Shown here piece after piece: positions 38,846-42,272 of a stretch of DNA of 64,000 bases. Source of the stretch: Fimbriimonadaceae bacterium (GTDB lineage: Bacteria > Armatimonadota > Fimbriimonadia > Fimbriimonadales > Fimbriimonadaceae). Where the stretch lies: NCBI GenBank assembly GCA_022843485.1, contig JALHNM010000001.1, positions 310,001 to 374,000 of the forward strand, given 5' to 3'. Numbering within the stretch: position 1 is the first letter of the stretch; each line of letters begins with the position of its first letter. The notes below the pieces were generated by a model. It was not told the origin of the DNA. It made no database searches and saw only the letters and a list, made by a program, of their open reading frames with translations. The position numbers and the translations under genes are program-made.

Positions 38846-38933
38846 CGATCCCCGTACGGACCATTCCGCAACCCTGCTGGCTCGGCGCCCGCAAGTCCAC
38901 CGGACATGGGGGCCCAAGGGGTGATATCTCGCG

Positions 38934-38952
38934 ATACCCATCCGGGTATAAA
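38934..38952 (+). promoter_or_regulatory. CsoR-type operator and -10 before csoR
   Basis: ATACCC and GGGTAT flank ATCC (38934-38949), the GC-rich palindrome with TA ends used by CsoR repressors. TATAAA (38947-38952) overlaps its right end as a -10, leaving about 7 bases to the ATG at 38960. Copper release of CsoR would open the promoter. Confidence 0.75.
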
Positions 38953-38959
38953 GGAGTTC

Positions 38960-39250
38960 ATGCGCAGTTCGGCCAAGACTCGGGTCGACCGGAGGCTGGC
39001 CCGTCTTGAGGGGCAGATCCGGGGCCTGAGGCGGATGCTCGATGAGGACGCCTACTGCATCGACGTCTTGACCCAGGTCGCCGCCGCCCGCTCCGCTTTG
39101 AACCAGGTCGCAGCCGAGATCGCTGCGAGCCACGTCCAGACGTGCCTGCTCAGCCGCGACTCAGAAGAGAGTCACGGTCGGGCCCGGGACGTGAGTGCCG
39201 AGGAGGCGTTCGAAGAGCTTCGAGAGACCCTGTCGAGACTGATGGCCTAA
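38960..39250 (+). CDS. csoR: Copper-sensing repressor, CsoR family
   Basis: A 96-residue all-helical DUF156/CsoR protein. The Cu(I) ligands are C33, H58 and C62 in AYCIDVL and ASHVQTCLL, the x-C-H-C set that separates copper sensors from formaldehyde or nickel ones. RVDRRLARLEGQIRGLRRML is the conserved DNA-contact helix. ATG 38960 has AAGGAG eight bases upstream. It precedes copZ and copA, and the same palindrome stands before both csoR and copZ, so it controls the whole module. Confidence 0.93.
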   Translation: MRSSAKTRVDRRLARLEGQIRGLRRMLDEDAYCIDVLTQVAAARSALNQVAAEIAASHVQTCLLSRDSEESHGRARDVSAEEAFEELRETLSRLMA

Positions 39251-39514: not shown

Positions 39515-41692
39515 GTGAGCACCGTGCCCGGATCGCGCCCCGCTGACACCACGAGCGAGCTCTCGATAGGCGGGATGTCGTGCGCGGCTTGCGTCGGCCG
39601 CGTCGAGCGGGCGCTCGCCCGGACGCCAGGCGTGCACTCCGCCCAGGTCAGCTTCGCGACCCACACCGCGACGGTCGTCCACGCCGCCGAGGTCACCCTG
39701 TCGGGCCTCGTCGCAGGGGTCGAGAAAGCCGGGTACACCGCCGCCCCTGTCACCCCCACGCAGGAACGGTCTTCTGACGAACCCGCGACCGCCGACCTGT
39801 GGCTTGCCGCTGCCCTCACGGTCCCGATTGTCGCGGTATCGATGGCCGTCCATCCCCGTCCCGGCTGGATGAACGTGGGCCTTCTGCTGCTCGCCACCCC
39901 CGTCGTCTTCTGGGCGGGGCGAGGGTTCCTGGTCCGTGGCGCCAAGACCCTGCGCCAAGGCACGGCGACGATGGACACGCTCATCGCGCTCGGGGCGCTC
40001 GCGGGGTGGGGCTACAGCGTCTATGGCCTGCTCGCCTACCCGCCGGGCTCCCACCACCAGTCAGAGCACATCTACTTCGAGGTTTCGGCGACCATCGTGA
40101 CCCTGATCCTCCTCGGCCGTTACCTCGAGGCGAGGGCCAAGGCCCGGATGTCCGGGGCGATCGAGCGCTTGGTCGGGCTTGTCCCGAGGACGGCGCTCCT
40201 CCGAAACGAGGACGGAGCCGAGACAGACGTCCCGATCGTCTCGATCCGCCCCGGCGACGTGCTTCGGCTCCGGCCAGGCGAGCGGGTGGCCGTCGATGGG
40301 AGCGCCGTGGACGGGGTCAGCCACATCGACGAATCGATGCTCACCGGCGAGCCGATGCCGGTCGAGAAGCGGCGGGGCGACCCCGTCGTCGCGGGCACGC
40401 TCAACACGACCGGCTCGCTGCTCTACCGCGCCGAGCGGGTGGGCGAACAGACCGAGCTCGCCCGGATCGTCCGCCTCGTCCGCCACGCCCAGGGCTCGAG
40501 GGCCCCGATGCAACGCCTGGCCGACCGGGTCTCCGCGGTGTTCGTTCCGGCGGTGGTGGCCGTCGCCCTCGTGACCCTTCTCGTCAACCTCGCCGTGACG
40601 CGGGACCTGGATACCGCCGTACTGAGGGCGGTTGCAGTGCTCGTCGTGGCCTGTCCCTGTGCCCTCGGACTCGCGACTCCGACCGCGCTCATGGTCGGCA
40701 CGGGCCGCGGCGCTGAACTCGGCGTGCTCGTCAAGGACGGCGAGGCGCTCGAAAGGGCCGGGTCGGTGCGCACGGTGCTGCTCGACAAGACCGGCACGCT
40801 TACGGTCGGCAAGCCCCGGCTCACCGACGTCCACCCCCTCGCTGACCTCACGCCCGACGAGGCCCTCGCCCTCGCCGCCTCCCTCGAAGCCCTGAGCGAG
40901 CACCCCCTCGCCGCCGCCGTGACCCAGGCTGCCTTGGACCGAGGCCTTGCACTCCACCCCGTGACCGGGTTCGCCGCCGAGCGCGGCCTCGGCGTGAGCG
41001 GGACCGTGGACGGCAAGCGGCTCGATATCGCCACCGCCCTGGACGAGCCGACCGGGGTGGCCGAACGCCTTCGAAGAGAGGGCAAGACCGTCTTCGCCCT
41101 GCTCGAGGAAGGTCGGGCCCTGGCCCTGTTCGCGGCGGCCGACGTGGTGGAGCCTCGGAGCCGGGAGGCCGTCGCCGCGCTCCGGCGGCTCGGCGTCGAG
41201 CCCGTCATGGTTACCGGCGACCACGCCCAGGCGGCCCAGTCGGTCGCCCGAGAGGTCGGCATCGACCGCGTGGAAGCCGGAGTGCGACCGGAGGGCAAGG
41301 CCGCACTCGTCGGCCACTACCGTGAACGAGGCCCGGTCGCGATGGTGGGAGACGGGATCAACGACGCCCCCGCCCTCGCCGCCGCCGACCTGGGCGTCGC
41401 CATGGGCCACGGCACCGACGTGGCGATGGAGACGGCGGGCGTCACGCTCGTGCGGCCGGACCTCCGCAGGGTCGCCACCGCGATCGCCCTTTCGCGGGCC
41501 ACGCTCCGGACCATCCGCGCCAACCTGTTCTGGGCGTTCGTCTACAACGTCCTGATGATCCCGCTCGCGGCCGTGGGGCTGCTCAACCCGATGCTGGCCG
41601 CCGGTGCTATGGCGCTGAGCAGTGTGTCCGTCGTGACGAACTCCCTCCGCCTCCGGGGCTTCCGACCCCCGGCCGAGGAGGCCGGGCCATGA
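39515..41692 (+). CDS. copA: Copper-translocating P1B-type ATPase
   Basis: A 725-residue pump with one N-terminal HMA domain (GMSCAAC), eight predicted membrane helices, and all key motifs: TGEP in the actuator domain, [13 protein letters not shown] for the metal channel, DKTGTLT with the phosphorylated aspartate, SEHPL for the nucleotide domain and [20 protein letters not shown]. NxxxxxxYN-like and [16 protein letters not shown] at the end are the PIB-1 copper signature. It exports Cu(I). The start is GTG on the base after the copZ stop. It ends seven bases from the convergent tRNA-Sec gene. Confidence 0.95.
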
Positions 41693-41698
41693 GGGGGG

Positions 41699-41792
41699 TG
41701 GCGGGAACGTGTGGGAGTCGAACCCACCCGACGCCCAAAGACGTCACGACGGTTTTGAAGACCGCGGGGCACACCGGCACCCATGCGCTCCC
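41699..41792 (-). tRNA. selC: tRNA-Sec(UCA)
   Basis: A 94-base gene with features of selenocysteine tRNA. The anticodon loop CTTCAAA gives UCA, reading UGA. The D stem can form six pairs (GGGTGC with GTGCCC) around a 4-base loop. The variable arm is long (GACG pairing with CGTC). The discriminator is G73 and CCA is encoded (41699-41701). The acceptor is GGGAGCG paired with CGTTCCC, with C8-A as a weak eighth position. T arm GTGGG-TTCGACT-CCCAC. This means the genome decodes some UGA as selenocysteine; no selenoprotein was found in this window. Confidence 0.9.
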
Positions 41793-41849
41793 GAATCCAA
41801 CCATTATACCGAGGCTGCAGGCCCTCTCCGAAGCAATGGACGATCACTC

Positions 41850-42272
41850 ATGAAGCTCACTATCGATTGGCAAGGCGACGTTCGGTTCGTCGCCCAGACC
41901 CCGACGTCTCACACCGTGACCCTCGACGGCTACCCCCTGGACGGACAGCCCAGCGCCGGCCCGACCCCCATGGAAATGCTCCTCGCGAGCGTCGGGGCGT
42001 GCACCGCCATGGACGTCGTCTCGATTCTGAAGAAGAAGCGCCAGAACGTGACCGGTTACCGCATCGAGGTGACCGGCGAGCGCGGGCCGGAGGGGGTCTT
42101 CCCGCGGCCGTTCGTCAAGGTCACGGTTAACCACATCGTCGTCGGGGAGGGCCTGGACCCGGTCGCCGTCGAGCGGGCCATCGAACTCAGCGACACGAAG
42201 TACTGCTCCGTGGCCGCGACCCTGCGGGACTCTCCCGAAATCGTCTCGACCTGGTCGGTCGAGGGGGCCTAA
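41850..42272 (+). CDS. OsmC-family peroxiredoxin-like protein
   Basis: A 140-residue OsmC/Ohr-fold protein of the YhfA-like branch. GPTPMEMLLASVGACTAMDVVSILKKKRQ holds the first redox cysteine, and ELSDTKYCSVAATLRD the second, the usual pair for thiol peroxidase activity. ATG 41850 is chosen because the frame upstream runs into the tRNA gene. It stands alone; a strong bidirectional hairpin terminator follows. Confidence 0.88.
   Translation: MKLTIDWQGDVRFVAQTPTSHTVTLDGYPLDGQPSAGPTPMEMLLASVGACTAMDVVSILKKKRQNVTGYRIEVTGERGPEGVFPRPFVKVTVNHIVVGEGLDPVAVERAIELSDTKYCSVAATLRDSPEIVSTWSVEGA

Follow-up and report, generated by a model that had tools for sequence, protein, structure and literature searches.

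A single selenocysteine tRNA gene and its predicted decoding pathway in a Fimbriimonadaceae bacterium of the phylum Armatimonadota

The minus strand of positions 41699-41792 in the 64,000-nucleotide stretch analysed here (the window) almost certainly carries the single selC gene of this Fimbriimonadaceae bacterium (Armatimonadota), serving the established bacterial selenocysteine (Sec) pathway, with transcription, charging and selenium insertion expected by analogy with that pathway. A complete selenocysteine system is thereby added for a little-studied phylum, with the whole gene set and three selenoprotein genes demonstrated, along with a minor structural departure of the tRNA that runs through the clade. 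The system is ordinary and well understood, except for an oddly unpaired tRNA position that is common to the relatives.

The locus is confirmed as a genuine tRNA-Sec gene. ARAGORN called a tRNA-SeC with anticodon TCA at 41699-41792 on the minus strand, and the Rfam model RF01852 matched the same interval end to end with 72.3 bits (E 7.2e-13 within the window), against a curated gathering score of 47 for this covariance model. Across the 2.96-Mb genome, selC was the sole place over that score, the runner-up reaching 46.7 bits. The minus-strand sequence reads GGGAGCGCATGGGTGCCGGTGTGCCCCGCGGTCTTCAAAACCGTCGTGACGTCTTTGGGCGTCGGGTGGGTTCGACTCCCACACGTTCCCGCCA. It is laid out as the acceptor 5′ strand GGGAGCGC, AU, the D arm (GGGUGC CGGU GUGCCC), C, the anticodon arm (GCGGU CUUCAAA ACCGU), the variable stem (GACGUC...GGCGUC), GG, the T arm (GUGGG UUCGACU CCCAC) and the acceptor 3′ strand ACGUUCCC, followed by G73 (position 41702, minus strand) and the encoded CCA (41699-41701, minus strand). 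The original prediction had placed a tRNA-Sec at exactly these coordinates, leaving the strand unstated, and each of the features it listed (UCA anticodon, 6-bp D stem, long variable arm, G73 and encoded CCA) is present in the sequence. A TATAAT −10-like hexamer at 41803-41808 on the minus strand, a weak signal read from the sequence, stops 10 nt before the point where the mature tRNA begins. It has no accepted −35 partner, and no full promoter or terminator for selC was detected by consensus scan.

Folding of the single sequence was uninformative by itself (z −1.28). tRNA-Sec genes were gathered from genomes within the host's family and order, and 30 of them were aligned. In this alignment 95.9% of the cloverleaf pair cells were standard and 29 of the 30 pairs held, with strong compensatory change. 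Both sides had changed in 16 of the 30 pairs, vs a mean of 7.3 after shuffling, and none of 500 shuffles was as high; sliding the partners by 1-3 columns lowered pairing to 41-60%. Because the 30 relatives show compensatory pairing and the slid registers are far worse, chance is excluded as the origin of the tRNA-Sec fold. The six pairs of the D stem, which closes a 4-nt loop, were 100% paired in the 30 sequences, both-side changes occurred in five of the six pairs of the long variable arm, and G73 and the encoded CCA were invariant. The family member G008 and the Fimbriimonadaceae isolate ACE_ARM1 have identical tRNA-Sec, from which the window's family is taken to be Fimbriimonadaceae; a sequence pattern derived from the tRNA matched named records of Fimbriimonadaceae, of Fimbriimonadales and of further Armatimonadota. 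Two records titled Eubacteriales (L065, L067) also hold a tRNA-Sec that fits the Fimbriimonadales-type pattern exactly, including a G.A eighth acceptor layer; these matches may reflect bins with a wrong label, common ancestry or transfer. One relative (G050, contigs C57 and C13) has, in addition to its main gene, a further tRNA-Sec-like match, scoring 53.1 bits.

According to the original prediction, the host makes selenoproteins, and the absence of selA, selB and selD would refute this. All three genes were present over curated cut-offs: selA on contig C16 (10715-11935; 468 bits, cut-off 268), selB on contig C1 (276997-278826; 338.6 bits with its neighbouring stretch, cut-off 242) and selD on contig C1 (550243-551286; 334.9 bits, cut-off 125). 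Together with the UGA-interrupted genes described below, they support the prediction. The four genes, selC included, are scattered over the genome, with no clustering with one another. The contig bearing selA is small (22 kb), but the G+C content and codon usage of selA fit the genome, and a genome of the same genus (G001) likewise carries selA. In selB (L022:4989-6845, G000:C1), no ATG, GTG or TTG was found upstream of the GTP-binding P-loop AGHVDHGK, and the frame opens with CTG directly after the TAG of the preceding gene, which suggests from the sequence that CTG or another rare codon may be the start.

In at least three genes of the genome, a catalytic, Cys-equivalent site is occupied by an in-frame TGA. 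One of them, selD, contains one TGA (motif CAG-U-ASK), a position that is also TGA in most relatives having selD. A peroxiredoxin gene (C4:4945-5307) contains one TGA at the peroxidatic position (PKDFTPG-U), which is common to two relatives (G032 and G014), and a SelW-like gene (C2:31283-31519) contains one within the motif C-M-A-U. All three are recognised selenoprotein families bearing these motifs (PMC13188914). This selenoproteome of three is a lower bound from the four families tried. The original prediction had proposed peroxiredoxin and formate dehydrogenase among the candidates. The former was borne out by the UGA-interrupted gene, the other 12 peroxiredoxin-like matches having no internal stop; the latter was dropped as a selenoprotein here, as nothing scored over the family cut-off and no TGA or internal stop was found. 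Within the window, no TGA-interrupted gene was detected by a codon-usage scan, which misses selD and the SelW-like gene and is weak for short N- or C-terminal cases. The Sec-peroxiredoxin (L028:916-1911, G000:C4, minus strand) is fused to a C-terminal part of about 170 residues, in which GDTCEGSA and a thioredoxin-like segment, ATPTVIVLD, occur and for which no Pfam match was obtained at E 0.001. The warning that UGA-containing genes may be mis-annotated as truncated is upheld by the in-frame UGA of selD, the Sec-peroxiredoxin and the SelW-like gene, and standard annotation is expected to truncate or drop all three, which provides concrete cases of this effect.

A computed SECIS-like hairpin with a GGUC apical loop follows the UGA of selD, of the peroxiredoxin and of the SelW-like gene, starting 35, 25 and 24 nt, respectively, after the T of the TGA. 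The same test was passed by 16 of the 1393 TGA trinucleotides of the window (1.1%), a generous chance figure to be read loosely as the loop motif was fixed after viewing selD. A second selD hairpin keeps its pairing in 27 relatives. At one of its pairs, a synonymous third codon position switches between C and G in step with a Gly-to-Arg codon change across the stem; as read from these codons, such tracking would not be required by protein constraint alone.

Among the window's genome and 60 relatives, tRNA-Sec was found in 35/61 genomes, selA in 34/61 and selD in 34/61. The three sets agree except for one 74%-complete genome (G036), which has the tRNA alone. Since tRNA-Sec occurs in 154 of 291 genomes phylum-wide as well as in 35 of the 61 analysed here, the Sec trait is widespread in the phylum yet patchily absent. 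A patchy Sec trait has been described for bacteria at large (PMC5029168), in a text that makes no mention of Armatimonadetes.

Such a distribution, with about half of the relatives lacking the trait (26/61 without tRNA-Sec), could be expected if selC were a decaying relic in a lineage losing selenocysteine, its tRNA no longer used, and the absence of the TGA from selD in a few trait-bearing relatives points the same way. However, compensatory pairing is kept in all stems, and the genome retains intact selA, selB and selD as well as three Sec UGAs and their hairpins, which makes a relic very improbable. The UCA anticodon alone is no proof of Sec either: UGA suppressors and Ser or Cys tRNAs of the allo-tRNA or selC*-like kind, inserting Ser or Cys at UGA, do exist (PMC7609411), and unrelated UCA-anticodon tRNAs with 7-bp acceptors occur on viral contigs. 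That the window gene encodes a tRNA of this sort is nonetheless hardly credible in view of its G73 and RF01852 score, its 6-bp D stem with a 4-nt loop, which is a SelA determinant (PMC7609411), and the near-perfect co-occurrence of tRNA-Sec with selA and selD. The viral-contig tRNAs (L206, L208, L214, L225, L230 and others) share a recurring TCCAAA in the variable arm, unlike tRNA-Sec, and are probably phage opal-suppressor or recoding tRNAs.

With selC read as a functional tRNA-Sec gene, the system most likely operates in the way known from textbooks for bacteria. By analogy with this established pathway, SerRS would charge the selC tRNA with serine, SelA would convert the product to Sec-tRNA-Sec using selenophosphate supplied by SelD, and SelB would bring Sec-tRNA-Sec to UGA codons having a downstream SECIS hairpin. 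The predicted products include SelD itself, the Sec-peroxiredoxin with its C-terminal extension and the SelW-like protein.

In the window, selC lies between two plus-strand genes. The divergent neighbour encodes an OsmC-family protein (41850-42272; PF02566, E 5.8e-20), and the convergent one a copper-type P1B ATPase (39515-41692; PF00122, PF00702, PF00403), with its stop codon 6 nt away from the selC 3′ end. A CsoR/RcnR-type metal-sensitive repressor (PF02583) is encoded just upstream of the ATPase, at 38906-39250, and the two likely form a copper-resistance operon. OsmC also adjoins tRNA-Sec in L050, L052, L053, L054, L059 and L063, and in the named records L066, L068, L071, L073 and L074; this adjacency seems to reflect a gene order passed down by descent and not a functional connection. 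The OsmC gene was ruled out as a selenoprotein gene: both conserved Cys are present, and Cys is kept in the six relatives examined as well.

The eighth acceptor layer of the window selC is C.A and not a Watson-Crick pair, with eight nucleotides kept on each strand. This layer is non-standard in 48 of 50 sequences of the order (unpaired in 29 of the 30 order members aligned), and in approximately 29 of 38 sequences from elsewhere in the phylum, a figure made approximate by a few ends that ARAGORN set differently (L148, L154, L173). The 50 order members rule out an error of one sequence. The mismatches are mostly G.A, A.A or C.A, and the A of the 3′ strand is conserved. Among viral-contig tRNAs with CCA scored as 8/5, the layer was paired in six and unpaired in four, a weak control as most UCA tRNAs there are unrelated; since some viral-contig tRNA-Sec share it, the missing pair may not be unique to Armatimonadota. 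Bacterial tRNA-Sec has been described with an 8-bp acceptor stem and an 8/5 fold (PMC7609411, PMC5330540), while 7/5 forms are reported for Epsilonproteobacteria and some other bacteria (PMC4607533, PMC5330540), some of which arose by nucleotide loss or a bulge (PMC5330540). With such 7/5 members documented, an eighth Watson-Crick acceptor pair is a typical rather than a defining criterion (PMC4607533, PMC5330540). On balance, we favor the view that the eighth acceptor pair, by which bacterial tRNA-Sec is commonly distinguished, has for the most part been lost from tRNA-Sec of Armatimonadota; SelA and SelB would then have to cope with a branch of 12 standard pairs and one mismatched layer in place of 13 bp. 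This clade-wide unpaired layer represents a small natural experiment on which features of tRNA-Sec SelA and SelB really need.

Compared with E. coli selC and the bacterial tRNA-Sec of RF01852, the window gene shares the UCA anticodon, the 6-bp D stem with a 4-nt loop, the long variable arm, G73, the encoded CCA and eight nucleotides on both acceptor strands; it differs by its C.A eighth layer and by not adjoining selA or selB. It resembles the 7/5 or 12-bp tRNA-Sec of Epsilonproteobacteria, Cloacimonetes and others (PMC4607533, PMC5330540) in having only seven standard acceptor pairs. However, in the 7/5 types of PMC5330540 the 3′ acceptor strand is 7 nt long or a bulge occurs, whereas the window selC has eight nucleotides per strand and a mismatched last layer. 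Relative to the bacterial Sec-decoding trait (PMC13188914, PMC9312934), the Sec genes are dispersed over this genome and the usual Sec formate dehydrogenase has no match over the cut-off, whereas the enzymes, the selenoprotein families, their motifs (TxxU in Prx, CxxU in SelW) and the position of the SECIS just 3′ of the UGA are the same.
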